Shown here one piece after another: positions 1 to 62,921 of a stretch of 64,000 bases of DNA (the stretch's first letter is position 1; each line of letters starts with the position of its first letter). The stretch is taken from the NCBI GenBank assembly GCA_963965975.1, contig OZ014415.1, positions 315,001 through 379,000 on the forward strand. Direction: 5' to 3'. Below the pieces are notes generated by a model. The model was given only the letters and a program-made list of their open reading frames with translations. It made no database searches and had not been told where the DNA came from. The translations under genes were made by a program, and so were the position numbers. Origin of the DNA: Xestospongia bergquistia. Taxonomy: Eukaryota; Porifera; Demospongiae; Haplosclerida; Petrosiidae.

Positions 1-1487
1 GTTTCCTCCAGTGATGTTAACAGTGTCACTGAATGTTGTGTTAGTGTAGTAGAGCAAGTAACCAGTGATGGGTCCATTCTGTCCAGAGCAAGGTACCTCA
101 TCCCATGATATAGTCATGGATCTTGACTTAACTGATGATATAATGATTTTACTGACAGATGAAGTGGGTACTGTAGATAATGTGAGAACAATATAATAAT
201 TGTGAAAGTGAGATATTGTGAATATAGTATAGTTTACCAGATGAGAGTGTAGTGGTAATACTAGAACCCAGGCCAACAGCTGGTTCACTACCATATATTC
301 CATAAAGACCAACAATACAGTAAGTACCAGGATCAATACCAGTAAATATATATAATGTGATGAGATTATATGAAGTCAGTCCTGATGTTATATTCAACAT
401 TGTGTTAGTGGTAGTTCCTGCACTCATAACAGAACTACTACCACTGCTGAGTTGATAGAACACCTCATAACCAGCTACTCCTGACACAGATGACCAGGAG
501 AGTTGTACATGAGTCAGACCTGTGTTCAGTCTTGTAGCAGTCAGACCAGTAGGAGTACCAGCAACTATAACACAGAGAGAGAATATGTATACCATCCTAC
601 TTAGTGATTAACTAACTTGTTATAGGCTGTGATGTACTACTACTACCTCTGGCATTGGAGACAGTACACTGGTAAGTACCAGCCTGTCTCATCCTCACTG
701 TCACTGTCACCTGTGTAACAGATCCTGGTCCATTCACAACCACACGAACCAGGTCACTACTACCAATGGTAAAGGGATTACTTCCATCTGTACAAGTGAC
801 ATTAGTGGGAGGTCCATCAGAGACATTGAAGATGAGAGTGAAGTCTGGAGGGTTAGTATCTCTTGTGGAGATGAGAGAGAACTTCATGGAGGAGTCTGCA
901 TCAGGACCATCTATATAAGAATGAGATATATCGTCATTTTATTACTACATGAATTCAGTCACTGACCATTCATATTGTAATTATGAGTTGTGTATATTCC
1001 TACCACTAGTGTTTGGCTCACTCCATTCTCATCAGGAATGATACAAGTGTACAGACCTTCATAACCTGATATTCCAAGAATTCTAGCTAGTGCAATCTGA
1101 CCTGTGGACCTTTTAGAGAATATAGGAGATGGTCCACTGTCAAATGAGTCACTATGTAAAAGTACTTGAGTACCATTAGGATAATACCACAGTCCAATAT
1201 CAGAACCATTATTAGCACTCTGACACCACAAGGCATCATTAGTACCATCCTTATTCTCATCAAGAGCATAAAACTGTCCACCATATATCATTGAGAAGTC
1301 TGGTATTATCCTATTTTCATAGGGTAGATACAGTTGAACACCTGTTGTTATGAAGTATATATTAATGATCACTCTAACAACAACTACTTACCATTACTAG
1401 GTCTGTTGGTAGGTACTTTGTCCACCTCCTAGTTGTACTAGTTAGTAGTGACATATAATACAATATCTTTACTAACTCTATCATCAT
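1..1487 (-). pseudogene. Receptor paralogue A (Ig-Ig-FN3), 5' part, probably disrupted
   Basis: Only the 5' half is in the window. Exons, 5' to 3': signal exon 1392-1487; Ig1 967-1341; Ig2 617-910; a fused FN3 exon 238-564; first type-3 FN3 exon 1-170, cut by the edge. The signal exon is 96 nt instead of the 91 nt found in most other copies: 4 nt and 1 nt insertions shift it, so the joined frame meets a stop early in Ig1. This makes A a likely pseudogene unless the insertions are assembly errors. Ig1 keeps the Cys pair (ALWCQS and LYTCII) and a DENKDGTND acidic loop. Exon 238-564 is a clean in-frame fusion of the 5' part of the FN3-1 exon with the 3' part of the FN3-2 exon, made by a deletion that also removed the intron. 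The Ig2 linker is shorter than in paralogues. A TATAAATA box lies at 1586-1593 (minus strand), 99 nt before the ATG. Confidence 0.75.
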
Positions 1488-1626
1488 CTTTGACAGAGCT
1501 AGTACTGATATAATGGAATATTATATTATCAATATAATAACTTTAGTTATGAAAGTTATTACATTTATTAATAGTTATAATAGTTTATTTATAGTAACAT
1601 AATTGTAATGATGTCATAAATTATTG

Positions 1627-1803
1627 TTATATTTGTCCCAATGGTTTAAGATCAGTAGATACCTATTATAATAAAGTGTATTATAATATTATAATAATAT
1701 AATGTATTACCTCAAATGTACATCCAGTTGATGACCTTATATCTTCAATACTGACCCCTTCTGAAATTTACATCAACTTCAGACCCTTTTCAGCATCAAC
1801 ATC
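1627..1803 (-). pseudogene. OXCT1: OXCT1 last two exons, A/B junction
   Basis: Last exon 1627-1662 encodes VSTDLKPLGQI-stop, like the SCOT C-terminus (VSPKLMPMQQI). The penultimate exon ends at 1711 and encodes DIRSSTGCTFE, but upstream it has a stop (KLM then TAA) and no acceptor, so it is dead. Intron between them about 48 nt. Confidence 0.75.
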
Positions 1804-1899
1804 AAATACATATTCAACACATGTACATAATTTATTGTACCATTTCTGTAATTATTCTATAAACACAATTCATTCCTATTAATGGCAGAGTACATTGAC
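1792..1899. repeat. Repeat R', OXCT1 side (first copy)
   Basis: A diverged copy of an approximately 120-bp direct repeat that lies on both sides of the receptor block. R' copies (between OXCT1 exon 3 and its last exons): 1792-1899, 7651-7762, 31923-32046, 39897-40010, 43486-43597, 50284-50388, 57145-57227, 63223-63336. Core features: GTTACCATGACAACA, TTTATTGTACCATTTCTGTA, CTTTCCTGTTAATGGCAGAG. It coincides with the internal deletion of OXCT1. Confidence 0.65.
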
Positions 1900-1977
1900 C
1901 TAATATTTTATGACTACCTCCCTGGAAGAAGAAAGAGAGAGACATTATCATCACATACATTATATATTATTACATAC

Positions 1978-2353
1978 CCAGCATTATTACTAACAATAAT
2001 CAATTCATTAGTACCAGTCTTAATTAATGCATTTATTAAATTCTCTGAAATACCACACAACCCAAATCCTATAATAAAATCAATAACATTATTACATCAT
2101 AATGATGTCATCATTAACAACTACCTCCTATGAGTAATTTTGATCCATCTTTAATATCTTTAACAGAGCTGTCATAAAACTCCACCCACTTTCCACTACT
2201 CAGGGATATACCATGACACTGCAATGGATAAAAGAGGACATTAACTAATACTACAATACTCACTTGAGATACTGATAGACTAGAAACTACTGATTTGAGA
2301 GTTTGTAAACGTTTTTGTAAGATACTACGAGATAGAGTAAACGTGAAAGCCAT
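1978..2353 (-). pseudogene. OXCT1: OXCT1 exons 1-3, A/B junction
   Basis: Exon 1 2264-2353 (mitochondrial-targeting-like start MAFTFTLSRSILQ, Arg- and Ser-rich), exon 2 2125-2218 (EFYDSSVKDIKDGSKLLIGG), exon 3 1978-2068 ([26 protein letters not shown]). These match the N-terminus of succinyl-CoA:3-ketoacid CoA-transferase, the mitochondrial ketone-body enzyme. Intron 1 is 45 nt. Everything from exon 4 to the last two exons is missing; the break lies next to repeat R. Exon 2 lacks the 9 nt encoding DAV that other copies and the family keep. Confidence 0.82.
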
Positions 2354-3310: not shown

Positions 3311-3320
3311 ATAAAAATAA

Positions 3321-3542: not shown

Positions 3543-6500
3543 TTAATGTTCAATTCTCTCATAAGTATAGTCTTGTTGAGAAGTGAGTTCAGTTGGTTCT
3601 TCATCAGTTATCTCATACAATGCTTCTTCAAATTTACTATAAACATGATATTATAATTTAAAATATGTCTCCTAGTAACTCACTTAGCACTTCTTTTTAC
3701 AATACTATAAGCTGGACTGGTTGTCATAGCGATATCTTCATGTGATGTTTTCATACTATATAAAACAAATCATTATAATAATCAATAAAGTTACTTTATC
3801 TAATAACATATATACCTCAATAACTGTATCTTATTATATTGTCTTATTACAATCAGTACTAGTATTATAATAATAATACCAGTAATAACTAATAGTACTA
3901 GTAATATTGATGATATAATAATTAGTACATTAGTAGAAGACAGGTGCTCAGTACTAATGGTTGTCATAGTGATAATAGGAGTACACCCTATAGAAGAATG
4001 ACATCATTATTACATAATACAATGACAATATAACAATCAATAATATAGTATTAGTATATATAATATAATCATTATATCTATATGTATTATATAATATGAT
4101 CATTAGTTAGTGTTGTATATAAATATATAATCAATATAATAATATATTATATTACATGTAACAATACATGTACTATTGTTATATATACAATGATATCAAT
4201 AGAATATATACTGATATATAGTTAATAATATCATTATATTATTTTATTATATAATTTACTTGTGTTTATTATTAATAATATAGTAATAATAGTTAGTATT
4301 GTTAATGAAAATATACTAGTTGATTGTATTAATGATAACATAACCTGTTGATGTTGTAATAATAGATGTTGTTGTTGTTAATATTGTTGATAATAAAGTA
4401 ATAGTTGATGATGATATAACTGTTGATGTTGGAGTTAAAGTGATTCCTATAATATATAATAATAGGATAGTAGTCTCCAATACATAGTATTAATATAATA
4501 AATATATAGTATTAATATAATGTATTAATATTAAGTAAGTGGTAGTTAAGTAATCTAGTTACTTGACTATAACTAAAGTAAAGTAACACAACATTTTTAT
4601 GATAGGAGACTACTTAAGTGATATGTGACTATTAGAGTAAACCTAACTCTAACATCTACTATATAATGGAATACTAAAAGACCAGCTAAATATCTTCCTC
4701 TCTAAAAATTAATTAATATCTTACCAGGTGAGATAGGTTGAGTTCTCTCTCCCTCATAATCAACTCCATTTATTTCATATGTTACAGAAAGTGAAAACAA
4801 ATAGTCTAAGTTATCTTGTAGTCCTCCTATTACACCTTCACTACTACCAGCAGGAAAGGTCTTCTTACCCATATCAGACTGTCTCTTATGTTTACTAGTA
4901 CTAATATAATAGACAGTATAGTGCTTGACTTCTTGAGCAGTAATAGGTTGCCACATAGCAAGTACTACAGTGTTATTGATTTTTATTATATTAAAACCAG
5001 AAACTGTAGCTATAGAGGAAATGATAAATGTTATTGAAAAAGACAGACAAGAGACCTACGTATGTTACTGGTAGAGATTTGAGTATCAATCCATTCTCCT
5101 GGTCCTACACTGGTATATGCTCTCACTCCAATGATATAGTTAGTATTAGGTAGTAGTCCTCCTATACTGTATTGTGTGTTGGTTGTATTGGTCATATTGT
5201 ATGGACCATTACTGTTAGACACTCTATAACGTATCTCATACATGATAATGATACCATTGGGTACTGTGGGTATATTCCATGTAATGTTGATCATTTGTAT
5301 TTCTGTACCACTTTGTATTAGATCAGATACCATACCAGGTTCTACAATATATCAATAATACATTATATATCAGTAGTAACTGACTTACTAGCTTCTCCTG
5401 TCTGTTGTATTACCTCAATACTTGCTGGTCCAGTCCCAGCATCATTATATGCTCTTACTGTCACAGTGTAGTTAGCATAAGTTGTGAGTGTTGTGAGGTT
5501 GTATTGTCTGTTGTCTCCTCCAGTGATGTTAACAGTGTCATTGAATGTTGTGTTAGTGTAGTAGAGCAAGTAACCAGTGATGGGTCCATTCTGTCCAGAG
5601 CATGGTACCTCATCCCATGATATAGTCATGGACCTTGCCTCAACTGATGATATAGTAATACTATTGACAGATGAAGTGGGTGCTATAGATAATGTGATAA
5701 CAATATAATAATTGTGAATATGATAATATAACATAGTTTACCAGATGAGAGTGTATTAATAATTGCTAAACGCAGGCCAGTTATTTCACTACCATATATT
5801 CCATTAAGACCAATAATACAGTAAGTACCAGGATCAATACCAGTAAATGTATATGGTGATGAGATTGATGAATTTGTTATAATAGGACCATATATCTTTT
5901 CACATAGTCTACGACAATGACGATAACCCTCATATATTTGAGGAGCAAATGAAGGTTGTATCCATATCATAGTAATAGTGGTATTAGTGGTAGTAAATGT
6001 CAGAATGGGAAAAGGGATAGCTAAAGATAAAGATAAGAATTAAGCTTTTTTCAAAGAGTGAGTATTATATAGTAATAAAGAAAGTTATGTCAGCAATTTA
6101 CTTACAAAATGTCACAGTGACATTATTACTATGATCACTAGGTAGTACTGTACTACTTTCACTGCCATATGATACTACAAAGAAGTTATATGTACTGTAT
6201 GAAGTCAGTCCTGATGTTATATTCAACATTGTGTTAGTGGTAGTTCCTGCACTCATAACAGAACTACTACCACTACTGAGTTGATAGAACACCTCATAAC
6301 CAGCTACTCCCGACACTGATGACCAGGAGAGTTGTGCATGAGCAAGACCTGTGTTCAGTCTTGTGGCATTCAGACCAGTAGGAGTACCAGCAACTATAAC
6401 AGAGAGAAAATATGTATACCATCCTACTCAGTGATTTATTTAACCTGTTATAGGCTGTGATGTACTACTACTACTTGTAGCATTTGGACCAGTTTCTCCA

Positions 6501-7340
6501 GGTATAGGACCATTAGTTACTCTGGCATTGGAGACAGTACACTGGTAAGTACCAGCTTGTCTCATCCTCATTGTTACTGTCACCTGTGTAACAAATCCTG
6601 GTCCATTTACTATCACACGAGACAGGTCACCACTAGCAATTGTTAATGGATTACTTCCATCTGTACAAGTAACATTAGTGGGAGGTCCATCAGAGACATT
6701 AAAGGTAAGAACGAAGACTGGGGGATTAGCATCTCTTGTGGAGATGAGAGAGAACTTCATGGATGAGTCTGCATCAGGACCATCTATATAATAGTGAGAT
6801 ATATCATCACTTTATTACTATAACAATTCAGTCACTAACCATTGCTATTATAAACATGATCTCTGTATGCTCCTACCACTAGTATTTGATTCACTCCATT
6901 CTCATCAGGAATGATACAGGTGTACAGACCTTCATAACCTACTAGTCCTCTATTTCTAGCTAGTGCAATCTGACCTGGGAACCTTTTTGAGAATATTGGA
7001 CTTTGTGTATTAAACAAAGGTACTTGAGTACCATTAGGATAATACCACAGTCCAATATCAGAACCAGTATTAGCACTCTGACACCACAAGGCATCATCTG
7101 TACCATCACCATTTCGATCACCATTATGAAACTGTCCAGTATATATCATTGAGAAGTCTGGTATTATCCTATTCTCATAGGGTAGATACAGTTGTACACC
7201 TGTTATTATGTAGTATATATTAATGATCACTCTAACAACAACTACTTACCATTACTAGGTCTGTTGGTAGGTACTTGTCCATCTCCTAGTTGTACTAGTA
7301 GTAACATATAATACAATATCTTTACTAACTCTATCATCAT
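3543..7340 (-). CDS. Receptor paralogue B: SP-Ig-Ig-5xFN3-stalk-TM-Tyr tail (885 aa), reference copy
   Basis: Intact 12-exon gene: 7250-7340 signal peptide; 6840-7199 Ig1; 6445-6783 Ig2; 6106-6393 FN3-1; 5742-6020 FN3-2; 5389-5682 FN3-3; 5060-5341 FN3-4; 4725-5009 FN3-5; 4345-4446 stalk; 3816-3987 TM; 3684-3755 tail 1; 3543-3636 tail 2. All introns begin GT and end AG and all ectodomain boundaries are phase 1. Residues: signal 1-22, Ig1 about 31-150, Ig2 151-263, FN3s 264-739, Thr/Ser stalk 740-773, hydrophobic helix about 794-821, tail 822-885. Ig1 has Cys pair WCQSA/YTCII and an acidic loop NGDRNGDGTDD; Ig2 has VTCTDG and GTYQCTV. FN3-2 carries RHCRRLCEK and TYCII cysteines. The tail holds YNKI, YSIV, YEIT and YERI. 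It is a single-pass type I surface receptor by topology; ligand unknown. An ATTAAA lies downstream of the stop. TATA-like box (TATAAAC) at 7441-7447. Confidence 0.88.
3988..4344 (-). other. AT-rich stalk-TM intron of B
   Basis: 357 bp, very AT-rich, with short TATAT and ACATGTAA-type inverted stretches (ATTACATGTAACAATACATG near 4150). No coding sequence seen. The same intron is present in C, F, G, H and I and is the site of the reverse-transcriptase-type insertion in D and E. Confidence 0.6.
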
Positions 7341-7480: not shown

Positions 7481-7658
7481 TTAAATTTGTTCCATTGGTT
7501 TAAGATCAGTAGATACCTATTATAATAAAGTGTATTATAATATTATAATAATATAATGTATTACCTCAAATGTACACCCAGTTGATGATCTTATATCTTC
7601 AATACTGACCTCTTCTGAAATTTCTATCAACTTCAGACCCTTCTCAGTATCAACATCA
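7481..7658 (-). pseudogene. OXCT1: OXCT1 last two exons, B/C junction (best preserved)
   Basis: Penultimate exon 7565-7658 has an intact TTAG acceptor and encodes [20 protein letters not shown] then DIRSSTGCTFE; last exon 7481-7516 encodes VSTDLKPMEQI-stop. This is the C-terminal end of SCOT (family: DVDRKKGLTLIELWEG..., STGCDF). It is open but cut off from exons 1-3 by loss of the middle of the gene. Confidence 0.82.
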
Positions 7659-7838
7659 CTAATTCACTATACACATATTGGTTACCATGACAACACATGT
7701 ATTGTACCATTTTTGTAATCTATTAACACAATTCTTTCCTGTTAATACCAGAGTACAATGATCTAATAGTTTATGACCACCTCCCTGGAAGGAGAGAGAG
7801 AGACATTATCATCATATACATTATATATTATTACATAC

Positions 7839-8223
7839 CCAGCATTATTACTAACAATAGTCAATTCATTAGTACCTGTCTTAATTAATGCATTTATTAA
7901 ATTCTCTGGAATACAACATAACCCAAAACCTATAATAAAATCAATAACATTATTACATCATAATGATGTCATCATTAACAACTACCTCCTATGAGTAATT
8001 TTGATCCATTTTTAATATCTTTAACAGCATCTACAGAGCTATCATAAAACTCCACCCACCTTTCACTACTCAGGGATATACCACGACACTGCAATGGATA
8101 AAAGAGGACATTAACTAATACTACAATACTCACTTGAGATACTGATAGACTAGAAACTACTGATTTGAGAGTTTGTAAACGTGTTTGTAAGATACTACGA
8201 GATAGAGTAAACGTGAAAGCCAA
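7839..8223 (-). pseudogene. OXCT1: OXCT1 exons 1-3, B/C junction
   Basis: Exon 1 8134 to about 8223, exon 2 7986-8088 (keeps SSVDAVKDIKNGSK, the ancestral length), exon 3 7839-7929 ([19 protein letters not shown]; Gly to Cys in the LCGIPE motif). A deletion between the start codon and the promoter (GCC-AAAG) removed the ATG, leaving only a GTG nearby. Confidence 0.8.
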
Positions 8224-9400: not shown

Positions 9401-12400
9401 TTAATGTTCAATTCTCTCATAAGTATAGTCTTGTTGAGAAGTGAGTTCAGTTGGTTCTTCATCAGTTATCTCATACAATGCTTCTTCAAATTTACTATAA
9501 ACATGATATTATAATTTAAAATATGTCTCCTAGTAACTCACTTAGCACTTCTTTTTACAATACTATAAGCTGGACTGGTTGTCATAGCGATATCTTCATG
9601 TGATGTTTTCATACTATATAAAACAAATCATTATAATAATCAATAAAGTTACTTTATCTAATAACATATATACCTCAATAACTGTATCTTATTATATTGT
9701 CTTATTACAATCAGTACTAGTATTATAATAATAATACCAGTAATAACTAATAGTACTAGTAATATTGATGATATAATAATTAGTACATTAGTAGAAGACT
9801 GGTACTCAGTACTAGTGGTTGTCATAGTGATAATAGGAGTACACCCTATAGAAGAATGACATCATTATTACATAATACAATGACAATATAACAATCAATA
9901 ATATAGTACTAGTATATATAATATAATCATTATATCTATATGTATTATATAATATGATCATTAGTTAGTGTTGTATATAAATATATAATCAATATAATAA
10001 TATATTATATTACATGTAACAATACATGTACTATTGTTATATATACAATGATATCAATAGAATATATACTGATATATAGTTTAATAATATCATTATATCA
10101 TTTTATTATATAGTTTACTTGTGTTTATTATTAATAATATAGTAATAATAGTTAGTGTTGTTAATAAAAATATACTAGTTGATTGTATTAATGATAACAT
10201 AACCTGTTGATGTTGTAATAATAGATGTTGTTGTTGTTAATATTGTTGATAATAAAGTAATAGTTGATGATGATATAACTGTTGATGTTGGAGTTAAAGT
10301 GATTCTTATAATATATAATAATAGGATAGTAGTCTCCAATACATAGTATTAATATAATAAATATATAATATTAATATAATGTATTAATATTAAGTAAGTG
10401 GTAGTTAAGTAATCTAGTTACTTGACTGTAACTAAAGTAAAGTAACACAACATTTTTATGATAGGAGACTACCTAAGTGATATGTGACTATTAGAGTAAA
10501 CCTAACTCTAACATCTACTATATAATGGAATACTAAAAGACCAGCTAAATAGCTTCCTCTCTAAAAATTAATTAACATCTTACCAGGTGGAATAGGTTGA
10601 GTTCTCTCTCCCTCATAATCAACTCCATTTATTTCATATGTTACAGAAAGTGAAAACAAATAGTCTAAGTTATCTTGTAGTCCTCCTATTACACCTTCAC
10701 TACTACCAGCAGGAAAGGTCTTCTTACCCATATCAGACTGTCTCTTATGTTTACTAGTACTAATATAATAGACAGTATAGTGCTTGACTTCTTGAGCAGT
10801 AATAGGTTGCCACATAGCAAGTACTGCAGTGTTATTGATTTTTATTATATTAAACCCAGAAACTAAAGCTATAGAGGAAATGATATAAGTTATTGAAAAG
10901 ACAGACAAGAGACCTACGTATGTTACTGGTAGAGATTTGAGTATCAATCCATTCTCCTGGTCCTACACTGGTATATGCTCTCACTCCAATGATATAGTTA
11001 GTGTTAGGTAGTAGTCCTCCTATACTGTATTGTGTGTTGGTTGTATTGGTCATGATGTATGGACCATTACTGTTAGACTCTCTATAACGTATCTCATACA
11101 TGATAATGATACCATTGGGTACTGTGGGTATATTCCATGTAATGTTGAGCACTTGTATCTCTGTACCACTTTGTATTAGACCAAATACCACACCAGGTTC
11201 TACAATATATCAATAATACATTATATATCAGTAATAACTGACTTACTAGCTTCTTCTGTCTGTTGTATTACCTCACTACTTGCTGGTCCAGTCCCAGCAT
11301 CATTATATGCTCTTACTGTCACAGTGTAGTTAGTGTAAGGTGTGAGTGTTGTGAGGTTGTACTGTCTGTTGTTTCCTCCAGTGATGTTAACAGTATTACT
11401 GAATGTTGTGTTAGTGTAGTAGAGCAAGTAACCAGTGATGGGTCCATTCTGTCCAGAAGAAGGTACCTCATCCCATGATATAGTCATGGACCTTGCCTCA
11501 ACTGATGATATAGTAATACTACTGACAGATGAAGTGGGTGCTGTAGATGTGAGAGTAATATAATAATTGTGAGTGTATTATAGTTTACTAGATGAGATTG
11601 TATTAATAATTCCTAAACCCATACTAGCTGGTTCACTACCATATATTCCATTTAGACCAATAATACATTATATATCAGTAATAATTCACTTACCAGCTTC
11701 TTCTGTCTGTTGTATTATCTCACTACTTTCTGGTCCAGTCCCGCCATCATTATATGCTCTTACTGTCACAGTGTAGTTAGTGTAAGGTGTGAGTGTTGTG
11801 AGGTTGTACTGTCTGTTGTTTCCTCCAGTGATGTTAACAGTATCACTGAATGTTGTGTTAGTGTAGTAGAGCAAGTAACCAGTGATGGGTCCATTCTGTC
11901 CAGAAGAAGGTACCTCATCCCATGATACAGTCATGGACCTTGCCTCAACTGATGATATAGTAATACTACTGACAGATGAGGTGGGTGCTGTAGATGTGAG
12001 AGTAATATAATAATTGTGAGTGTATTATAGTTTAACAGATGAGATTGTATTAATAATTCCTAAACCCATACTAGCTGGTTCACTACCATATATATTCCAT
12101 TTAGACCAATAATACATTATATATCAGTAATAATTCACTTACCAGCTTCTTTTGTCTGTTGTATTACCTCACTACTTGCTGCTCCAGTCCCAGCATCATT
12201 ATATGCTCTTACTGTCACAGTGTAGTTAGTGTAAGGTGTGAGTGTTGTGAGAGTATATTGTCTGTTGTTTCCTCCAGTGATGTTAACAGTATCACTGAAT
12301 GTTGTGTTAGTGTAGTAGAGCAAGTAACCAGTGATGGGTCCATTCTGTCCAGAAGAAGGTACCTCATCCCATGATATAGTCATGGACCTTGCCTCAACTG

Positions 12401-23936: not shown

Positions 23937-23959
23937 TATGTTTTCCTCGAGCAATAAAA

Positions 23960-48200: not shown

Positions 48201-49975
48201 GTATCTCATCCCATGATATAGTCATGGACGTTGCCTCAACTGATGATATAATGATTTTACTGACAGATGAAGTGGGTGCTGTAGATAATGTGAGAACAAT
48301 ATAATAATTGTGAATATGATAATATAACATAGTTTACCAGATGAGAGTGTAGTGATAATTCCAGTACCAAGGCCAGCTGATTCACTACCATATATTCCAT
48401 CAAGACCAATAATACAGTAAGTACCAGGATCAATACCAGTAAATGTATATGGTGATGAGATAAATGAATTTTTTATGCCAGGATCATACATCTTTTCACA
48501 TAGTCTTCGACAATGACGATAGCCCTCATATGTTTGAGGAGCAAATGAAGGTTGTGTCCACATCATAGTAATAGTGGTATTAGTGGTAGTAAATGTCAGA
48601 ATGGGAAAAGGGATAGCTAAAGATAAGGATAAGAGCAATAGTAGCTTTTTTCAAAGACAGAGCATTATATGATACTAAATAAAGTTTTATTTATTCATCT
48701 ATTACTTACAAAATGTCACAGTGATTGTGTTACTATGATCACTAGGTAGTACTGTACTACCCTCACTGCCATATGATACTACAAAGAAGTTATATGAGTT
48801 AATCATGCTATTTGTTCTGTAAGTCAGTCCTGATGTTATATTCAACATTGTGTTAGTGGTAGTTCCTACACTCATAACAGAACTAATACCACTACTGAGT
48901 TGATAGAACACCTCATAACCAGCTACTCCTGACACAGATGACCAGGAGAGTTGTACATGAGCAAGACCTGAGTTCAGTCTTGTAGCATTCAGACCAGTAG
49001 GAGTACCAGCAACTATAACAGAGAGAGAGAATATGTATATCATCCTACTCAGTGATTAACTAACCTGTTATAGGCTGTGATGTACTACTACTACTTGTAG
49101 CAATTGGACCAGTTTCTCCAGGTATAGGACCATTAGTTACTCTGGCATTGGAGACAGTACACCGGTAAGTACCAGCTTGTCTCATCCTCACTGTTACTGT
49201 CACCTGTGTAACAGATCCTGGTCCATTTACTACCACACGAGACAAGTCACTACTAGCAATGGTGAATGGATTACTTCCATCTGTACAAGTGACATTAGTG
49301 GGAGGTCCATCAGAGACATTGAAGGTAAGAGTGAAGACTGGGGGATTAGCATCTCTTGTGGAGATGAGAGAGAACTTCATAGAGGAGTCTGCATCAGGAC
49401 CATCTATATAAGAGTGAAATATATCATCACTTTGTTACTACATCAATTCAGTCACTAACCATTGCTATTGTAAGCATAATTTCTGTATGCTCCTACCACT
49501 TGTGTTTGGTTCATTCCATTCTCATCAGGAATGATACAGGTGTACAGACCTTCATAACCTGATAGGCTACCTTTTCTAGCTAGTGCAATCTGGCCTGCAA
49601 ACCTCATAGAGAATATAGGAGACGGTCCATCTTCAAATGTTCCATCAAACAAAGGTACTTGAGTACCATTAGGATAATACCACAGTCCAATATTAGAACC
49701 ATTATTAGCACTCTGACACCACAAGGCATCATTAGTACCATCATTATTCTTATCAAGAGCATAAAACTGTCCACCATATATCATTGAGAAGTCTGGTATT
49801 GTATTATTCTCATAGGGTAGATACAGTTGTACACCTGTTATTATAAAGTATATATTAATGATCACTCTAACAACAACTACTTACCATTACTAGGTCTGTT
49901 GGTTGGTACTTGTCCATCTCCTAGTTGTACTAGTAGTAACATATAACACAATATCTTTACTAACTCTATCATCAT
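45246..49975 (-). CDS. Receptor paralogue G: SP-Ig-Ig-7xFN3-stalk-TM-tail (1091 aa)
   Basis: Exons: 49885-49975 signal; 49460-49834 Ig1; 49065-49403 Ig2; 48710-49012 FN3-1; 48338-48616 FN3-2; 47985-48278, 47538-47831, 47088-47381 type-3 FN3; 46759-47040 FN3-4; 46425-46709 FN3-5; 46045-46146 stalk; 45519-45690 TM; 45387-45458 and 45246-45339 tail. All frames join; probably functional. FN3-1 is 15 nt longer than in other copies, an insertion in the loop after TSGLT (YRTNSMINS). Ig1 loop is ALDKNNDGTND, nearly identical to that of A. The TM exon is the NGLTAGL type shared with D, while the rest of the gene resembles other copies, which suggests gene conversion. Tail: AYSVV, LYEIT, DYTYERIEH. TATA box at 50076-50083. 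Confidence 0.88.
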
Positions 49976-50115: not shown

Positions 50116-50293
50116 TTATATTTGTTCCATTAGTTTAAGATCAGTAGATACCTATTATAATAAAGTGTATTATAATATTATAATAATATAATGTATTACC
50201 TCAAATGTACATCCAGTTGATGACCTTATATCTTCAATACTGACCCCTTCTAAATTTCCATCAACTTCAGACACTTTTCAGCATCAACATCAA
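50116..50293 (-). pseudogene. OXCT1: OXCT1 last two exons, G/H junction
   Basis: Last exon 50116-50151 (VSTDLKLMEQI-stop). The penultimate exon (50200 to about 50290) has lost a base in the ISEEV codons, giving a frameshift, and has no acceptor. Confidence 0.73.
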
Positions 50294-50467
50294 ATACATA
50301 TTCAACATATGTACATAATTTATTGTACCATTTATGTAATTATTCTATAAACGTAATTCATTCCTATTAATGGTAGAGTACATTGACCTAATATTTTATG
50401 ACTACCTCCCTGGAAGGAGAAAGAGAGAGAGACATTATCATCATATACATTATATATTATGACATAC

Positions 50468-50842
50468 CCAGCATTATTACTAACAATAGTCAAGTCATTA
50501 GTACCAGTCTTAATTAATGCATTTATTAAATTCTCTGGAATAACACACAACCCAATCCTATAATAAAATCAATAACATTATTACATCATAATGATGTCAT
50601 CATTAACAACTACCTCCTATGAGTAATTTTGATCCATCTTTAATATCTTTAACAGAGCTGTCATAAAACTCCACCCACTTTCCACTACTCAGGGATATAC
50701 CACGACTCTGCAATGGATTAAAGAGGACATTAACTAATACTACAATACTCACTTGAGATACTGATAGACTAGAAACTACTGATTTGAGAGTTTGTAAACG
50801 TGTTTGTAAGATACTACGAGATAGAGTAAACGTGAAAGCCAA
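50468..50842 (-). pseudogene. OXCT1: OXCT1 exons 1-3, G/H junction
   Basis: Exon 1 50753 to about 50842 without ATG (same deletion as the B/C copy), exon 2 50614-50707, exon 3 50468-50557, which lost one base at its start (90 nt) and is frameshifted. Confidence 0.78.
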
Positions 50843-52023: not shown

Positions 52024-55000
52024 TTAATGTTCAATTCTCTCATAAGTATAGTCTTGTTTAGAAGTGAGTTCAGTTGGTTCTTGATCAGTTATCTCATATA
52101 ATGTTTCTTCAAATTTACTATAAACATGATATTATAATTTAAAATATGTCTCCTAGTAACTCACTTAGCACTTACAACACTATAAGCTGGACTGGTTGTC
52201 ATAGCGATATCTTCATGTAATGTTTTCATACTATATAAAACAAATCATTATAATAATCAATAAAGTTACTTTATCTAATAACATATATACCTTAATAACT
52301 GTATCTTATTATATTGTCTTATTACAATCAGTACTAGTATTATAATAATAATACCAGTAATAACTAATAGTACTAGTAATATTGATGATACAATAATTAG
52401 TACATTAGTAGAAGACTGGTACTCAGTACAAGTGGTTGTCATAGTGATAATAGGAGTACACCCTATAGAAGAATGACATCATTATTACATAATACAATGA
52501 CAATATAATATAATCAATAATATAGTACTAGTATATATAATATAATCATTATATCTATATGTATTATATAATATGATCATTAGTTAGTGTTGTATATAAA
52601 TATATGATCAATATAATAATAAATTATATTACATGTAAAAATACATGTACTATTGTTATATATACAATGATATCAATAGAATATATACTGATATATAGTT
52701 TAATAATATCATTATATCATTTTATTATATAGTTTACTTGTATTTATTATAAATAATATAGTAATAATAGTTAGTGTTGTTGATGAAAATATACAAGTTA
52801 ATTGTATTAATAATAACATAACCTGTTGATGTTGTAATAATAGATGTTGTTGTTGTTAATATTGTTGATAATAAAGTAACTGTTGATGATAATATAACTG
52901 TTGATGTCGGAGTACAAATGATTCCTATAATATATAATAATAATTAATAGTAATTTACAATATATAGTGCATTAATATTAATGAGATAAGTGGTAGTTAA
53001 GTGTTCTAGTTACTGGACTAGTACTAATGCTAAGTAAAACTGCACTTTTATGATGGGAGAGTGATACATTACTAATGTTAAATTATATTACTGGAGTGGA
53101 CCCAACTCTACCACCTACAATGTTGTACAATGGACTCATAAAAGACACTTCTTACTCTCTAAAAATTAATAAATATCTTACCAGGTGGGATAGGTTGAGT
53201 TCTCTCTCCCTCATAATCAACTCCATTTATTTCATATGTTACAGAAAGTGAGAACAAATAATCTAAGTTATCTTGTAGTCCTCCTATTACACCTTCACTA
53301 CTAGCAGCAGGAAAGGTCTTCTTACCCATATCAGACTGTCTCTTATGTTTACTAATACTAATATAATAGACAGTATAATGCTTGACTTCTTGAGCAGTAA
53401 CAGGTTGCCACATAGCAAGTACTGCAGTGTTATTGATTTTTATTATATTAAAACCAGAAACTGTAGCTATAGAGGAAATGATAAATGTTATTGAAAAGAC
53501 AGAAAAGAGACCTACATATGTTACTGGTAGAGATTTGAGTATCATTCCATTCTCCTGGTCCTACACTGGTATATGCTCTCACTCCAATGATATAGTTAGT
53601 GTTAGGTAGTAGTCCTCCTATACTGTATTGTGTGTTGGTTGTATTAGTTATATTGTGTGGACCATTACTGTTAGACTCTCTATAATGTATCTCATATATG
53701 ATAATGATACCATTGGGTACTGTGGGTATATTCCATGTAATGTTGATCCCTTGTATCTCTGTACCACTTTGTATTAAACCAGATACCATACCAGGTTCTA
53801 CAGTATAACAATAATACATTATATATCAGTAGTAACTGACTTACTAGCTTCTTCTGTCTGTTGTATTACCTCACTACTTGCTGGTCCAGTCCCAGCATCA
53901 TTATATGCTATTACTGTCACAGTGTAGTTAGTGTAAGGTGTGAGTGTTGTGAGGTTGTATTGTCTGTTGTCTCCTCCAGTGATGTTAACAGTGTCACTGA
54001 ATGTTGTGTTAGTGTAGTAGAGCAAGTAACCAGTGATGGGTCCATTCTGTTCAGAGCAAGGTACCTCATCCCATGATATAGTCATGGACATTGCCTCAAC
54101 TGATGATATAATGATATTACTGACAGATGAAGTGGGTGCTGTAGAAATGATGAGAACAATATATAATTGTAAAAATGAGAATGTAGTAGTGATGTTTTAG
54201 TTAACTATAACTAAAACTAAAACTCTTTTAGTTTAGCCTATTTTACTTTTAGTTAACTAACTAAAACTAACTAAAAGTTTTTTGAAACCAAGAAAACTAA
54301 CTAAAACTAACTAAAATTAATGCATTAATGGTAAAAATAACTATAACTAACTATTATGGTTAGTATTGAACTAAAACAACAGATACCTGTACTCAATAAA
54401 TAACTGTCACACTTGTGTAAAAGATAAACCACTAGTAAGTGATACGTTAACTGTGATAAGTTAACTGATAACTAAAAATAGCACTATTCAATACAATATC
54501 ACATGTATACCTTTCACCTTGGCTGTATAATAAGCTATCGCAAAAAACAATGTAACCATGTGCAGGCCATAAATCAGTATAAGCAGTAAAAAGTGAGGAA
54601 GTTGAAACTTCTGTTATGTCTGCTATGTCAACTGAAAGACCAAAAGCAAACCCAGTTTGGGAATACTTTTGATGATGAAGCACCAAACAATAATGTTTGC
54701 AAGATTGAGACCTCAAAAAGGTTGAATGTGAGAATAAAATAAAAGGAAAAAATCCAACTAATTTAATACAGTACCTGAGCAAATATCTTGCTGATACTTA
54801 TAGGAAGTTAAGAAAATAATCTTAAGGATAATAAAGCTACTTGTAATGGTAAAACAACGCCAGGCAACTAAGCCTTGCTTTGATGCTGCATAAATCTTTT
54901 TACATCAAATAATTTAGCAAATAATTGAGAAGTTAGCTACATTGATTGGTAGTGCAAATGTTACAACAATTCTAGTGGAAAACCAGGAATTTCGTGATCT

Positions 55001-56841
55001 ACTAATGGAACAAAATTCTCCTTCCAAAGTTGGTTATGCATCAAGTGATAGAAGAAACCGATTGGCAGATACAAACTTAAAGAATAAAATACTTTTAAGA
55101 AAAACGAGCAATATCTTTAGTCTAATAATGCATTAAATTTAACTAACTTTCTCAACTATAACTAACTAAAATTATATAAAGTTAAACTAAAACAAATAGA
55201 ATGTAGTATAGTTTACCAGAGGAGAGTGTGTCGATAATATTAGAACCCAGGCTAGCTGGTTGTTCATTACCATATACTCCATTAAGAGCAACAATACATT
55301 TACTACCAGGATCAATACCAGTAAATGTATATGGTGATGAGATTGATGAATTTGATATGACAGGATCATACATATTTTCACATAGTCTTTGACATTGACG
55401 AAGGCCCTCATATGTTTGAGGAGCAAATGAAGGTTTTATCCATATCATAGTAATAGTGGTATTAGTGGTAGTAAATGTCAGAATGGGAAAAAGGATAACT
55501 AAAGATAAGGATAAGAGCAATAGTAGTTTTTTTTCAAAGACAGAGCATTATATGATACTAAATAAAGTTTTATTTATTTATTTATTACTTACAAAATGTT
55601 ACAGTGATATTGTTACTATGATCACTAGGTAGTACTGTACTACCTTCACTGCCATATGATACTACAAAGAAGTTATATGTACTGTTTGAAGTCAGTCCTG
55701 ATGTTATATTCAACATTGTGTTAGTGGTAGTTCCTGCACTCATAACAGAACTAATACCACTACTGAATTGATAGAACACCTCATAACCAGCTACTCCTGA
55801 CACAGATGACCAGGAGAGTTGTACATGAGCAAGACCTGTGTTCAGTCTTATAGCAGTCAGACCATTAGGAGTACCAGCAACTATAACAGAGAGAGAATAT
55901 GTATACCATCCTACTCAGTGATTAACTAACCTGTTATAGGCTGTGATGTACTACTACTATTTGTAGCATTTGGACCATTTTGTCCAGGTACAGGACCACT
56001 AGTTACTCTGGCATTGGAGACAGTACACTTGTAGGTACCAGCCTGTCTCATCCTCACTGTTACTGTCACCTGTGTAACAGATCCTGGTCCATTCACTACC
56101 ACACGAGACAGGTCACCACTAGCAATAGTGAATGGGTTACTTCCATCTGTACAAGTGACATCAGTGGGAGGTCCATCAGAGACATTGAAGGTGAGAGTGA
56201 AGACTGGAGGATTAGCATTTCTTGTGGAAATGAGAGAGAACTTCATGGATGAGTCTGCATCAGGACCATCTATATAATAGTGAGATATATCATCACTTTA
56301 TTACTACATGAACTCAATCACTGACCATTGATACTGTAAGCATGATTTGTGTATATTCCTACCACTAGTGTTTGGTTCACTCCATTCTCATCAGGAATGA
56401 TACAGGTGTATAGACCTTCAATACCTAATATAGAGACTCTTCTAGCTAGTGCAATCTGACCTGCAAACCTCTTAGAGAATATAGGAGATGGTCCACTTTC
56501 AAATGAGCCACTATGTAAAGGTAATTGATTACCATTAGGATAATACCACAGTCCAATATTAGAACCATTATTAGCACTCTGACACCACAATGCATCTATA
56601 AGACTATCGCTATTCTTATCAACATCAAAAAATAGTCTAGCATATATCATTGAGAAGTCTGGTATTGTCCTATTCTGATAGGGTAGATACAGTTGTAAAC
56701 CTGTTATTATGAAGTATATATTAATGATCACTCTAACAACAACTACTTACCATTACTAGGTCTGTTGGTAGGTACTTGTCCATCTCCTAGTTGTACTAGT
56801 AGTAACATATAATACAATATCTTTACTAACTCCATCATCAT
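52024..56841 (-). CDS. Receptor paralogue H: SP-Ig-Ig-5xFN3-stalk-TM-tail (889 aa), hAT element in an intron
   Basis: Exons: 56751-56841 signal; 56326-56700 Ig1; 55931-56269 Ig2; 55593-55880 FN3-1; 55217-55498 FN3-2; 53845-54138 type-3 FN3 (single copy); 53516-53797 FN3-4; 53182-53466 FN3-5; 52823-52924 stalk; 52291-52462 TM; 52165-52230 and 52024-52117 tail. All frames join. A 1012-bp hAT-like element lengthens the intron between FN3-2 and the type-3 FN3 exon without touching splice sites. Tail exon 1 is 6 nt shorter (in frame), removing two residues after AYSVV; tail 2 has SKQD instead of SQQD. Ig1 loop is DVDKNSDSLID, with the DG glycine replaced. The type-3 FN3 keeps the family's first-position Cys (VPCSEQNG). 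TATA box 56940-56947. Confidence 0.86.
54187..55198 (+). mobile_element. Decayed hAT-like DNA transposon, 1012 bp
   Basis: Flanked by an 8-bp direct repeat GAATGTAG (54179-54186 and 55199-55206), the target-duplication size of hAT elements; the unoccupied site is visible in paralogue C near 22360. Ends are imperfect inverted repeats: left TAGTGATGTTTTAGTTAACT, right (complement) TATTTGTTTTAGTTTAACT, with internal AACTAAAACT repeats. Plus-strand frames keep pieces of a hAT transposase: NPVWEYF then, after a frame break, DDEAPNNNVCKI (BED-finger-like, about 54645-54705) and TTILVENQEFRDLL (about 54960-55005). Stops and frameshifts show it cannot encode an active transposase. Confidence 0.75.
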
Positions 56842-56980: not shown

Positions 56981-57158
56981 TTAAATTTGTCCCATTAGTT
57001 TAAGATCAGTAGATACCTATTATAATAAAGTGTATTATAATATTATAATAATATAATGTATTACCTCAAATGTACACCCAGTTGATGATCTTATATCTTC
57101 AATACTGACCCTTTCTGAAATTTCTATCAATTTCAGACCCTTCTCAACATCAACATCA
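56981..57158 (-). pseudogene. OXCT1: OXCT1 last two exons, H/I junction
   Basis: Last exon 56981-57016 (VSTDLKLMGQI-stop), penultimate from 57065 to about 57158, without acceptor. Confidence 0.73.
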
Positions 57159-57301
57159 TTTATTGTATCATTTCTGTAATTATTCCATTAACCTCATTCC
57201 TTTTTGTTAATGGCAGAGTACATTGACCTAATATTTTATGACTACCTCCCTAGAAAGAGAGAGAGACATTATCATCATATACATTATATATTATTACATA
57301 C

Positions 57302-57686
57302 CCAGCATTATTACTAACAATAGTCAAGTTATTAGTACCAGTCTTAATTAATGCATTTATTAAATTCTCTGGAATACCACACAACCCAAAACCTATAATA
57401 AAATCAATAACATTATTACATCATAATGATGTCATCATTAACAACTACCTCCTATGAGTAATTTGGATCCATTTTTAATATCTTTAACAGCATCTACAGA
57501 GCTATCATAAAACTCCACCCACTTTCCACTACTCAGGGATATTCCACGACACTGCAATGGATAAAAGAGGACATTAACTAATACTACAATACTCACTTGA
57601 GATACTGATAGACTAGAAACTACTGATTTGAGAGTTTGTAAACGTGTTTGTAAGATACTACGAGATAGAGTAAACGTGAAAGCCAT
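57302..57686 (-). pseudogene. OXCT1: OXCT1 exons 1-3, H/I junction
   Basis: Exon 1 57597-57686, exon 2 57449-57551 (ancestral 103-nt form with SSVDAVKDIKNGSK), exon 3 57302-57392 ([19 protein letters not shown]). All open and correctly spliced; only the middle of the gene is lacking. Confidence 0.82.
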
Positions 57687-58361: not shown

Positions 58362-58498
<137 letters not shown>

Positions 58499-58689: not shown

Positions 58690-61600
58690 TTAAGTATAGT
58701 CTTGTTGAGAAGTGAGTTCAGTTGGTTCTTGATCAGTTATCTCATACAATGTTTCTTCAAATTTACTATAAACATGATATTATAATTTAAAATATGTCTC
58801 CTAGTAACTCACTTATCAATTGGTTTTTCAGCACTATAAGCTGGACTGGTTGTCATAGCGATATCTTCATGTGATGTTTTCATACTACATAAAACAAATC
58901 ATTATCAATAAAGTTACTTTATCTAATAACATATATACCTTAATAACTGTATCTTATTATATTGTCTTATTACAATCAGTACTAGTATTATAATAATAAT
59001 ACCAGTAATAACTAATAGTACTAGTGATATTGATGATACAATAATTAGTATATTAGTAGAAGACTGGTACTCAGTACTAGTGGTTGTCATAGTGATAATA
59101 GGAGTACACCCTATAGAAGAATGACATCATTCTTACATAATACAATGACAATATAACATAATCAATAATATAGTACTAGTATATATAATATAATCATTAT
59201 ATCTATATGTATTATATAATATGATCATTAGTTAGTGTTGTATATAAATATATGATCAATATAATAATATATTATATTACATGTAACAATACATGTACTA
59301 TTGTTATATATACAATGATATCAATAGAATATATACTGATATATAGTTTAATAATATCATTATATCATTATATTATATAGTTTATTGTGTTTATTATTAA
59401 TAATATAGTAATAATAGGTAGTGTTGTTAATAAAAATATACAAGTTGATTGTATTAATGATAACATAACCTGTTGATGTTGTAATAATAGATGTTGTTGT
59501 TGTTAATATTGTTGATGATAAAGTAATAGTTGATGATAATATAACTGTTGATGTTGGAGTTAAAGTGTTTCCTATAATATATAATAATAGGATAGTAGTC
59601 TCCAATACATAGTATTAATATAATAAATATATAATATTAATATAATGTATTAATATTAAGTAAGTGGTAGTTAAGTTACTTGACTGTAACTAAAGTAAAG
59701 TAACACAGAATAGTAACATTTTTATGATAGGAGACTACTTAAGTGATATGTGACTATTAGAGTAAACCTAACTCTACCATCTACTATGTAATGGAATACT
59801 AAAAGACCAGCTAAATAGCTTCCTCTCTAAAAATTAATTAACATCTTACCAGGTGGGATAGGTTGAGTTCTCTCTCCCTCATAATCAACTCCATTTATTT
59901 CATATGTTACAGAAAGTGAGAACAAATAGTTTAAGTTATCTTGTAGTCCTCCTATTACACCTTCATTGCTACAAGCAGGAAAGGTCTTCTTACCCATATC
60001 AGACTGTCTCTTACGTTTACTAGTACTAATATAATAGACAGTATAGTGCTTGACTTCTTGAGCAGTAATAGGTTGCCACATAGCAAGTACTGCAGTGTTA
60101 TTGATTTTTGTTATAATAAAAACAGAAACTATAGCTATAGAGGAAAGGATATAAGTTATTAAAAAGACAGACAAGAGACCTACGTATGTTACTGGTAGAG
60201 ATTTGAATATCACTCCATTCTCCTGGTCCTACACTGGTATATGCTCTCACTCCAATGGTATAGTTAGTGTTAGGTAGTAGTTCTCCTATACTGTATTGTG
60301 TGTTGGTTGTATTAGTCATATTGTATGGACCATTACTGTTAGACTCTCTATAACGTATCTCATACATGATAATGATACCATTGGGTACTGTGGGTGTATT
60401 CCATGTAATGTTGATCACTTGTATATCTATACCACTTTGTATTAGATTAGATACCACACCAGGTTCTACAATATATCAATAATACATTATATATCAGTGG
60501 TAACTGACTTACTAGCTTCTTCTGTCTGTTGTATTACCTCACTACTTGCTGGTCCAGTCCCAGCATCATTATATGCTATTACTGTCACAGTGTAATTAGT
60601 ATAAGGTGTGAGTGTTGTGAGGTTGTACTGTCTGTTGTCTCTTCCTGTGATGTTAACAGTGTCATTGAATGTTGTGTTAGTGTAGTAGAGCAGGTAACCA
60701 GTAATGGGTCCATTCTGTCCAGAAGAAGGTACCTTATCCCATGATATAGTCATAGATCTTGCCTCAACTGATGATATAGTAATACTACTGACAGATGAAG
60801 TGGGTGCTGTAGATGTGAGAGTAATATAATAATTGTGAGTGTATTATAGTTTACCAGATGAGATTGTGTTAATAATTTCTAAACCCAGGCTAGCTGGTTC
60901 ACTACCATATATTCCATTTAGACCAATAATACTATATATATCAGTAATAATTCACTTACCAGCTTCTCCTGTCTGTTGTATTACCTCACTACTTGCTGGT
61001 CCAGTCCCAGCATCATTATATGCTATTACTGTCACAGTGTAGTTAGTGTAAGGTGTGAGTGTTGTGAGGTTGTACTGTCTGTTGTCTCTTCCTGTGATGT
61101 TAACAGTGTCACTGAATGTTGTGTTAGTGTAGTAGAGCAAGTAACCAGTGATGGGTCCATTCTGTCTAGAGCAAGGTACCTCATCCCATGATATAGTCAT
61201 GGACGTTGCCTCAACTGATGATATAATGATTTTACTGACAGATGAAGTGGGTACTGTAGATAATGTAAGAACAATATAATAATTATGAAACTGAGAATAT
61301 AACATAGTTTACCAGATGAGAGTGTAGTGATATTTTCTTGTACCCAGGTCAGCTGTTTCACTACCATATATTCCATAGAGACTAACAATACAATAAGTAC
61401 CAGAATCAATACCAGTAAATGTATATGGTGATGAGATTGATGAATTTGTTATGATAGGATCATACATCTTTTCACATAGTCTTCGACATTGACGATAGCC
61501 CTCATATGTTTGAGGAGCAAATGAAGGTTGTGTCCATATCATAGTAATAGTTGTATTAGTGGTAGTATGTGTTAGAATGGGAAAAGGGATAGCTAAATAT

Positions 61601-62921
61601 AAGGATAAGATCAATAGTAGCTTTTTTCAAAGAGAGAGCATTATATAGTAATAAAGAAAGTTATATCAGCAATTTACTTACAGAATGTCACAGTGGTTGT
61701 GTTACTATGATCACTAGGTAGTACTGTACTACCCTCACTGCCATATGATACTACAAAAAAGTTATATGTACTGTATGAAGTCAGTCCTGATGTTATATTC
61801 AACATTGTGTTATTGGTAGTTCCTGCACTCATAACAGAACTACTACCACTACTGAGTTGATAGAACACCTCATAACCAGCTACTCCTGACACAGATGACC
61901 AGGAGAGTTGTACATGAGCAAGACCTGTGTTCAGTCTTGTAGCAGTTAGACCATTAGGAGTACCAGCAACTATAACAGACAGAGAATATGTATACCATCC
62001 TACTCAGTGATTTATTAACCTGTTATAGGCTGTGATGTACTACTACTACTTGTAGCATTTGGACCACTATATCCAGGTATAGGACCGTTAGTTACTCTGG
62101 CATTGGAGACAGTACACTGGTAAGTACCAGCTTGTCTCATCCTCACTGTTACTGTCACCTGTGTAACAAATCCTGGTCCATTTACTATCACATGAGACAG
62201 GTCACCACTAGCAATTGTTAATGGATTACTTCCATCTGTACAAGTAACATTAGTGGGAGGTCCATCAGAGACATTAAAGGTAAGAGTGAAGACTGGGAGA
62301 TTAGCATCTCTTGTGGAGATGAGAGAGAACTGCATAGAGGAGTCTGCATCAGGACCATCTATATAATAGTGAGATATAACATCACTTTATTACTATATGA
62401 ACTCAGTTACTAACCATTGATACTGTAAGCATGATTTGTGTATATTCCTACCACTAGTGTTTGGTTCACTCCATTCTCATCAGGAATAATACAGGTATAC
62501 AGACCTTGATAGTCTCTTATTCCTTTTTTTCTAGCTAGTGCAATCTGACCTTTAAACTTCTTTGAAAATATTACAATTTGACTATTTTCAGTAAACACAG
62601 GTACTTGAGTACCATTAGGATAATACCACAGTCCAATACTAGAACCATTATTAGCACTCTGACACCACAAGGCATCATCAGAACCATCATCATTCTGATC
62701 ACCATTATGAAACTGTCCAGCATATATCATTGAGAAGTCTGGTATTATCCTATTCTCATAGGGTAGATACAGTTGTACACCTGTTATTATGAAGTATATA
62801 TTAATGATCACTCTAACAACAACTACTTACCATTACTAGGTCTGTTGGTAGGTACTTGTCCATCTCCTAGTTGTACTAGTAGTAACATATAATATAATAT
62901 CTTCACTAACTCCATCATCAT
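58690..62921 (-). pseudogene. Receptor paralogue I, frameshifted and with truncated tail
   Basis: Exons: 62831-62921 signal; 62415-62780 Ig1; 62020-62358 Ig2; 61682-61969 FN3-1; 61313-61592 FN3-2; 60960-61253 and 60513-60806 type-3 FN3; 60184-60465 FN3-4; 59850-60134 FN3-5; 59470-59571 stalk; 58939-59110 TM; 58813-58884 and 58690-58765 tail. FN3-2 is 280 nt, one base too long near 61335, so the frame shifts (LGTRKYHYTL in place of a normal LGT...TTLSSG end) and stops in the next exon. Independently, a 2-nt deletion in the last exon makes DYT then stop, losing the final YERIEH, and tail exon 1 reads AYSAE instead of AYSVV. Ig1 loop NGDQNDDGSDD. All other exons are open. TATA box 63012-63019. 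Confidence 0.8.

Follow-up and report, generated by a model that had tools for sequence, protein, structure and literature searches.

The window analysed here, a 64,000-base stretch at C5:315,001-379,000 of a 146.46 Mb genome (21 contigs) that was searched as a whole, carries a tandem array of genes for membrane receptors with an immunoglobulin (Ig)-like head, a stalk of fibronectin type III (FN3) domains and a short tail bearing tyrosines. The same ectodomain recurs in a second array on the same contig, where it is joined to two tandem protein tyrosine phosphatase (PTP) domains. At the level of sequence, the two arrays have heads in common and different intracellular ends, the head alternates between hypervariable (HV) and framework segments, and the exons that make up the receptors have incongruent histories. 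We put at about one in two (roughly 0.5) the probability that these genes form a repertoire of paired recognition receptors, in which shared variable heads are placed on opposing tyrosine-signalling ends and are shuffled by gene conversion. The probable use of such a repertoire would be the recognition of other cells (self versus non-self) or of microbes. The phosphatase array, the alternation of HV and framework segments and the reassortment of exons are all additions to what an initial annotation of this DNA had described.

Receptor exons were placed by tblastn with exon probes taken from one copy, followed by a splice-aware pass that defined exon ends and open reading frames; intron phases (1, and 2 for the last two introns) were read on one copy and assumed for the remaining copies. 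This approach located nine loci with signal peptide (SP) and domain 1 exons, all on the minus strand and spanning window positions 1 to 62,918, in agreement with the nine adjacent same-strand paralogues reported initially. We refer to them as R1 to R9 from high to low coordinate. The exon order is SP, domain 1, Ig2, FN1, FN2, a varying number of central FN3 exons, FN5, FN6, a transmembrane (TM) exon and two tail exons, and all exons of eight copies have GT/AG splice sites, with the sole exception of the FN6 remnant of the compact copy R4. The single architecture ascribed to the cluster holds in eight of the nine copies for the SP, FN3 domains, TM and tail of about 65 residues; R9 lacks a TM and tail exons of its own, and a mucin-like stalk exon between FN6 and TM was found in one window copy only, R1. 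Nine is likewise the correct count for the window, but the cluster itself is larger: examination of the flanking stretches shows that these receptors are part of array A, which extends over about C5:271-402 kb and whose 144 kb hold 23 gene-like segments, several of them fragments. Genome-wide there are at least 150 matches to the domain 1 exon (the best 150 of 188 candidates), some of them partial or with stop codons.

The second array (array B) runs on the minus strand between C5:627 kb and 745 kb or beyond (the stretch examined was C5:625-745 kb), and domain 1 and PTP matches extend past it to about C5:766 kb. Array B shares the SP, domain 1, Ig2 and FN exons with array A, and identity to the R1 probe is 62-84% in its nine intact domain 1 copies. 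A TM or tail of the window type was not found at C5:625-745 kb. Instead, the ectodomain is followed by a different TM, a juxtamembrane exon, an I-set exon and two PTP domains, termed D1 and D2. Eleven probes for this TM and intracellular part give 137 high-scoring segment pairs in the 120 kb of array B, D1/D2 cross-matches included, and none in the 144 kb of array A, where no PTP catalytic domain was found. The nine copies of the I-set marker (80-100% identity) all reside at C5:627-731 kb, and the other 13 matches do not exceed 36%. This Ig domain sits between TM and PTP, which is the predicted cytoplasmic side, both in the gene at C5:708271-708819 and in eight others.

We judged the two PTP domains by what we take to be the usual catalytic motifs. 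D1 carries SWPDHGVP (the WPD loop) together with VHC and SAGVGRTG, the latter two split by an intron; the corresponding motifs of D2 are altered to NWDT and TVTRSG. D1 therefore looks catalytically active and D2 degenerate. The PTP exons D1d, D1e, D2b and D2c of array B are 83-100% identical to the probe, and more distant PTP genes occur in the same stretch at about 631 kb and 734-737 kb (31-62% identity). Because the close paralogues of the window receptors are receptor protein tyrosine phosphatases (RPTPs), the likely signalling logic of the family changes. The initial annotation recognised no named orthologue, a view that stands for domain 1 in Pfam, PDB and viral and prokaryotic searches; these close phosphatase paralogues had been missed.

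To describe variation in the head we used 28 intact domain 1 exons (19 from array A and nine from array B), excluding copies with stop codons or lacking splice sites. Four HV segments alternate with framework, with mean amino-acid distances of 0.56, 0.52, 0.38 and 0.39 for the HV segments versus 0.14, 0.07, 0.22 and 0.08 for the framework. In R1, domain 1 occupies window positions 62416..62778 (minus strand, as are all features given below), with HV1 at 62677..62721, HV2 at 62569..62610, HV3 at 62512..62544 and HV4, at the end of the exon, at 62416..62454. The proportion of nonsynonymous sites that differ (pN) is 0.274 in HV segments versus 0.052 in framework. Nonsynonymous to synonymous ratios (dN/dS) are 1.41 for the 62 pooled HV codons and 0.38 (bootstrap 0.22-0.64) for the 70 framework codons, and column entropies in arrays A and B correlate with r 0.82.

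In the introns beside domain 1, the mean difference is 0.015 on the SP side (SP-domain 1 intron, 19 copies) and 0.085 on the Ig2 side (domain 1-Ig2 intron, 20 copies). The HV codons of array A, by comparison, differ at a fraction of 0.27 of their nonsynonymous sites and 0.20 of their synonymous sites. That the flanking introns are far less divergent than the HV codons speaks against plain ageing of the copies. Furthermore, the high synonymous difference within the HV segments implies that these segments are old or fast-mutating while their flanks have been homogenised. Judged by dN/dS, change in the HV segments is at least free and perhaps favoured.

HV1 also holds a motif that resembles calcium loops of the DxDxDG kind. 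The pattern D-x-[NSD]-x-D-x-x-x-D occurs in 21 of the 28 copies, 14 of which have G at position 6, and R1 carries the form DxNxDGxxD; the loop is absent in four copies and deviant in three. This likeness is no more than a lead. With the Ig strands positioned according to the landmark residues described below, the loops equivalent to complementarity-determining regions 1 and 3 would be conserved and the variable segments would lie elsewhere on the domain.

The assignment of domain 1 as Ig-like follows from landmark residues only. C39, W51 and G92-x-Y94-x-C96, which have the usual Ig spacing, are invariant in 17 of 17 members, including one that is only 51% identical to R1. No Pfam Ig family matched domain 1 in any of these 17 members, and nothing above noise was found in PDB (best profile match E 0.29). 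The weak Pfam matches that do occur are scattered among DUF4859 (seven of 17), FG-GAP_3 (two), EF-hand_5, Hydin_ADK and DUF5606 (one each), with best E values of 0.018-0.2. Viral and prokaryotic relatives were also sought; 75 and 56 stretches, respectively, fit the residue pattern, and none is related by tblastn. By comparison, Ig2 matches Pfam ig, Ig_2 and Ig_3 in nine of nine members (best E 0.00025; under the cut-off in R1), so that of the two Ig domains initially proposed the second is matched to Pfam Ig families and the first is not. Among the FN exons of R1, the central FN3 (64.6 bits) and FN5 (54.8 bits) exceed the Pfam cut-off of 25, FN1 (23.1 bits) and FN6 (20.1 bits) match fn3 under it, and FN2 (61344..61592) has no fn3 or other relevant Pfam match.

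Several observations indicate that the exons of these receptors have been reassorted. Distances between copies in domain 1 are uncorrelated with those in FN1, FN2, FN5, FN6 and TAIL2 (r -0.25 to 0.02, p ≥0.40), and correlate weakly with those in Ig2 (r 0.24, p 0.027). This last pair is one of only three among 21 exon pairs that reach p <0.05, the others being FN1-FN2 (r 0.81, p 0.008) and FN6-TAIL2 (r 0.43, p 0.0025). Even within domain 1, among the four HV segments, distances measured in one show little correlation with those in another (r -0.05 to 0.28).

The same holds between the arrays. For three of five exons, the trees place array-B copies at several points among those of array A, and the approximately unbiased (AU) test rejects a single array-B clade for domain 1 (p 7e-7, 28 rows), Ig2 (p 3e-40, 29 rows, one short row dropped) and FN5 (p 8e-5, 26 rows). 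The domain 1 of the giant copy R7 (23419..23802) has its nearest array-B relative in that of a receptor at C5:678.6 kb, with support of 100/100 and an amino-acid difference of 7.8% (92% identity). Identity in this pair is 90-100% throughout domain 1, compared with 52-77% at the low points of three unlike pairs. Close homology across the arrays begins at the SP exon; in the DNA upstream of it, four of the five cross-array pairs compared show little similarity, and the remaining pair is 62-78% alike. The ectodomain of the window receptors shares descent with that of the RPTPs, as judged from exon identity and from the interleaved trees of domain 1, Ig2 and FN5.

The tail of the window kind is about 65 residues long and has three to five tyrosines in the last two exons, as counted in 15 array-A copies. 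Ten distant tails, located on C8 (three), C2 (four) and at C5:1.56-1.59 Mb (three), were read by eye: the middle (LYE) tyrosine is present in ten of ten, a SPAY-type tyrosine in eight and a terminal Y[DE] tyrosine in seven. Because these tails were fetched by their similarity to the window TM and tail, the sample is biased toward look-alikes. The tail module is repeated in receptors at C5:1558500-1559035, 1585000-1585530 and 1592550-1593050.

A third kind of receptor occurs at C5:1018001-1028000. The head of this divergent subfamily is 51% identical to that of R1, and it has a repeat stalk encoded by a VNEIST minisatellite and a tail of its own (HIYAAV), a tail type also found on C1. One of two copies read there bears the window-type TM and tail instead, which constitutes a tail swap.

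Taken together, these features suggest the following model. Domain 1 would serve as a hypervariable head on an FN3 stalk, used by both the tail kind and the phosphatase kind, and the two kinds would be paired receptors for a common set of ligands at cell contacts. Tail tyrosines phosphorylated by kinases would recruit SH2 proteins, the phosphatase kind would strip phosphate, and the balance of engaged heads would set the outcome. Unequal crossing-over and gene conversion would homogenise the framework, carry variable segments from gene to gene and prevent the two kinds from drifting apart. A recognition role of this sort was already proposed in the initial annotation, and it is partly supported by the presence of HV segments between fixed framework, by HV codons that far exceed the flanking introns in divergence and by heads common to different signalling ends. 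A bolder version of the model is tentative, possible but well short of an even chance: the genes might be a germline repertoire of an early animal, in which phosphatase and tail receptors continually exchange heads from one pool of hypervariable Ig-like domains that may depend on calcium, such that each specificity can exist in an ‘on’ and an ‘off’ form. Such a self/non-self system with a built-in phosphatase arm would be unlike Alr, fuhc and vertebrate natural killer cell receptors.

A number of results weigh against the paired-receptor model. The bootstrap interval of dN/dS for the HV codons (0.96-2.03) takes in 1, and when variable columns picked in one array are applied to the other, the dN/dS values are 0.96 on array A and 1.57 on array B (the rest of domain 1 gives 0.63 and 0.43, respectively), so positive selection is not proven by these sequences. 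The high synonymous difference in the HV segments might stem from a mutation hot spot or from old variants, and the agreement of column entropies between the arrays is not independent evidence because the arrays share exons. Nor is divergence confined to the head. The inner introns differ by 0.151 (Ig2-FN1) and 0.065 (FN5-FN6), and the FN1-FN2 intron, whose lengths make it poorly alignable, differs by 0.273 and is thus as divergent as the HV codons. FN2 has a pN of 0.182 in array A and 0.206 in array B, compared with 0.142 and 0.148 for the whole of domain 1, and in Ig2 a single stretch close to the end is variable (pN 0.38). FN2 varies along most of its length around a conserved YTFTGIDPGTYC core, with dN/dS values of 1.03 (array A) and 0.85 (array B), and could represent either a further surface for recognition or one in decay. 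In addition to the YTFTGIDPGTYC core, it has two conserved cysteines.

The evidence for shuffling and for signalling has similar weak points. A clear swap of segments, in which one HV segment is near-identical and another very different, is seen in only nine of 378 pairs, and the AU test leaves room for a single array-B clade in the trees of FN1 (p 0.071, 31 rows) and FN6 (p 0.187, 18 rows). These few swaps and the incongruent histories of the exons are compatible with gene conversion between the two kinds. An immunoreceptor tyrosine-based inhibitory motif (ITIM) has the form (I/V/L/S)xYxx(I/V/L), and the activating counterpart (ITAM) consists of two YxxL/I at set spacing. By eye, no canonical example of either is present in the 15 array-A tails, in which YSVV, YERI and similar sites have neither the ITIM -2 residue nor the ITAM spacing. 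Finally, the TM and tail exons are weakly constrained within array A (dN/dS 1.11, 1.51 and 0.95), and this tempers any claim that the tails signal.

Other explanations must be considered in light of these results. The receptors might instead form an adhesion or cell-sorting code, made up of homophilic adhesion proteins for development or tissue sorting whose diversity would mark cell identity rather than self/non-self or serve defence. Adhesion proteins typically have Ig/FN3 stalks and RPTP partners, homophilic binding is reported for type IIB RPTPs (PMC9800333), and a central FN3 number that ranges from 0 to 25 would set the reach of each receptor; nevertheless, HV segments, decaying copies and turnover of copies fit changing partners better, and we regard this code as unlikely. 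A decoy function, in which the tail receptors would compete for the ligands of the phosphatase receptors by means of tails that do not signal, draws on the sharing of heads between the two kinds, on the lack of a catalytic domain in the window type and on the weak constraint on its TM and tail. Yet the middle tyrosine persists in all ten distant tails, albeit in a biased sample, and one copy with another ectodomain bears the window TM and tail; both observations point to a working tail. We consider a decoy function to be the least probable of these alternatives.

Relaxed tandem expansion is improbable as well, if less so than decoys. By this account, unequal crossing-over multiplies copies, variable loops tolerate change and much of the array is becoming pseudogenes. 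Damage in two of the nine window copies, the remnants between copies, the fragments of an unrelated gene carried along (see below), an HV dN/dS not significantly above 1 and the divergence of FN2 and of the FN1-FN2 intron all accord with it. However, the framework is clearly constrained, the Ig landmarks are invariant even in the member with 51% identity to R1, and both introns next to domain 1 are far less divergent than the HV codons.

The individual window copies bear out the initial description of intact, compact, giant and dying genes side by side. R1 (58690..62918) comprises SP, domain 1, Ig2, FN1, FN2, two central FN3 exons, FN5, FN6, the mucin-like stalk exon, TM and a tail with a shorter end, and all of its exons are open. 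So are those of R2 (52024..56838; one central FN3), R3 (45246..49972; three), R6 (24915..30875; four) and R8 (3543..7337; one). The compact copy R4 (40676..43172) has no central FN3 and is reduced to SP, domain 1, Ig2, FN1, an FN6 remnant, TM and tail. Two of the nine copies are damaged: R5 (34699..39581) has a stop codon in the first (37677-37970) of its two central FN3 exons, and R9 (1..1484), which continues beyond the left edge of the window, has a frameshifted SP exon in addition to the missing TM and tail. Remnants of decayed copies lie between the genes, with FN2/FN3 pieces at 30944..31578 and Ig2 pieces at 23945..24285, both interrupted by stop codons.

The giant copy R7 (9401..23936) encodes about 3,200 amino acids. 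Its 25 central FN3 exons, each 294 bases in length, have a mean pairwise identity of 97.2% and specify 17 distinct proteins, and this near-identity indicates a recent tandem expansion of the stalk. The exons lie at 11247-22319 with a spacing of about 449 bases. Elsewhere in the window, a long TA-dinucleotide repeat is located downstream of R1 (58350-58544).

Each of the nine window receptors is preceded by a truncated piece of a gene for succinyl-CoA:3-ketoacid CoA-transferase (SCOT). All nine units have the C-terminal piece, which we take to be SCOT from its likeness to OXCT1, and seven also have an N-terminal piece. PF01144 supports the identity in six of the nine units, upstream of R1 (63056..63763), R2 (56984..57686), R4 (43319..44049), R6 (31765..32788), R8 (7484..8223) and R9 (1630..2353). 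The fragment upstream of R3 (50119..50842) and the C-terminal fragments upstream of R5 (39728..39901) and R7 (24526..24699) are matched by the probe only. A near-complete SCOT copy with a PF01144 match resides within array A at C5:304-307 kb, and another is present at C7:2.235 Mb. No SCOT fragment was found with the receptor copies at C5:271-300 kb, and the piece therefore seems to have been acquired within the array.

Further gene clusters were noted elsewhere in the genome. Groups of tyrosine-phosphatase matches that resemble tandem expansions occur at C9:1.99-2.15 Mb, C10:0.97-1.25 Mb, C2:6.83-6.93 Mb, C3:1.27 Mb and C5:438-528 kb, and protein kinase domains (PF07714) are clustered at C11:5.92-6.07 Mb and C6:1.62-1.70 Mb. 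A cluster of papain-family protease exons is located at C9:1.502-1.523 Mb, where one copy, examined in a search for silicatein, has CGSCWAF and so looks like a cathepsin, which is not diagnostic of a sponge. A reading of the receptors as tyrosine kinases gained no support, as no PF07714 match lies at C5:271-402 kb or C5:625-745 kb among the matches listed (the best 129 of 1201).

No description of this receptor family was found in the literature, as covered by openly licensed papers. Pieces of Piwi exons mark the source of the DNA as an animal; they score almost equally against a ‘Piwi-like protein 1’ chain (161.5 bits) and against ‘Piwi-A’ (155.1 bits), a sponge protein, so that the sponge of the initial annotation is a candidate only. 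Should the animal prove to be a sponge or to belong to another early branch, the arrays would provide a concrete genomic candidate for recognition receptors there, and the named HV segments, exons and genes make polymorphism, expression and binding directly testable. Sponges distinguish self from non-self in grafts with remarkable specificity (PMC5450542, whose main text mentions no receptor, phosphatase, fibronectin or Ig domain).

Comparison with known systems helps to place the family. Array B resembles Ig/FN3 receptor protein tyrosine phosphatases, among which are the LAR and type IIB kinds, in having an ectodomain of Ig-like and FN3 domains, one TM, an active-looking D1 and a degenerate D2. 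It departs from them in the I-set exon after the TM and in heads that are hypervariable and tandemly amplified. The window receptors themselves are RPTP paralogues rather than RPTPs, because the window copies lack a PTP domain. Like Ig-type receptor tyrosine kinases, the window kind are Ig-type membrane receptors that would act through phosphotyrosine, but no kinase match was found in either array among the best 129 of 1201.

The Alr complex of Hydractinia offers another parallel. Parts of two reports (PMC11876637, PMC11999971) describe about 40 clustered allorecognition genes of the Ig superfamily, homophilic and polymorphic, with intact and decayed copies. Both Alr and the window receptors are clustered Ig-superfamily membrane receptors with intact and decayed copies, for which recognition at cell contact is the likely use. 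Unlike Alr, the window receptors carry numerous FN3 domains, and some of their paralogues contain PTP domains. For domain 1, searches of Pfam and PDB gave no match to known Ig families; Alr sequences were not part of the comparison. In view of this negative result, the FN3 stalks and the RPTP paralogues, we do not file the family as Alr.

In vertebrate paired receptors, one arm recruits phosphatases through ITIMs. Siglec-11/16, CEACAM1/3 and CD300A/C are like the present family in that similar extracellular regions are joined to opposing intracellular ends. Gene conversion acts on the head of Siglec-11/16 (according to portions of PMC5701461), and CEACAM1/3 and CD300A/C are described, in excerpts of their literature, as paired receptors whose heads are kept alike by the same process. 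The present family differs from these vertebrate examples in that one arm has phosphatase domains of its own, the set of genes is far larger and the head is hypervariable. The family also suggests that the pairing of a shared head with opposite effects on phosphotyrosine, familiar from the immune receptors of vertebrates, may have evolved independently here with a built-in phosphatase.

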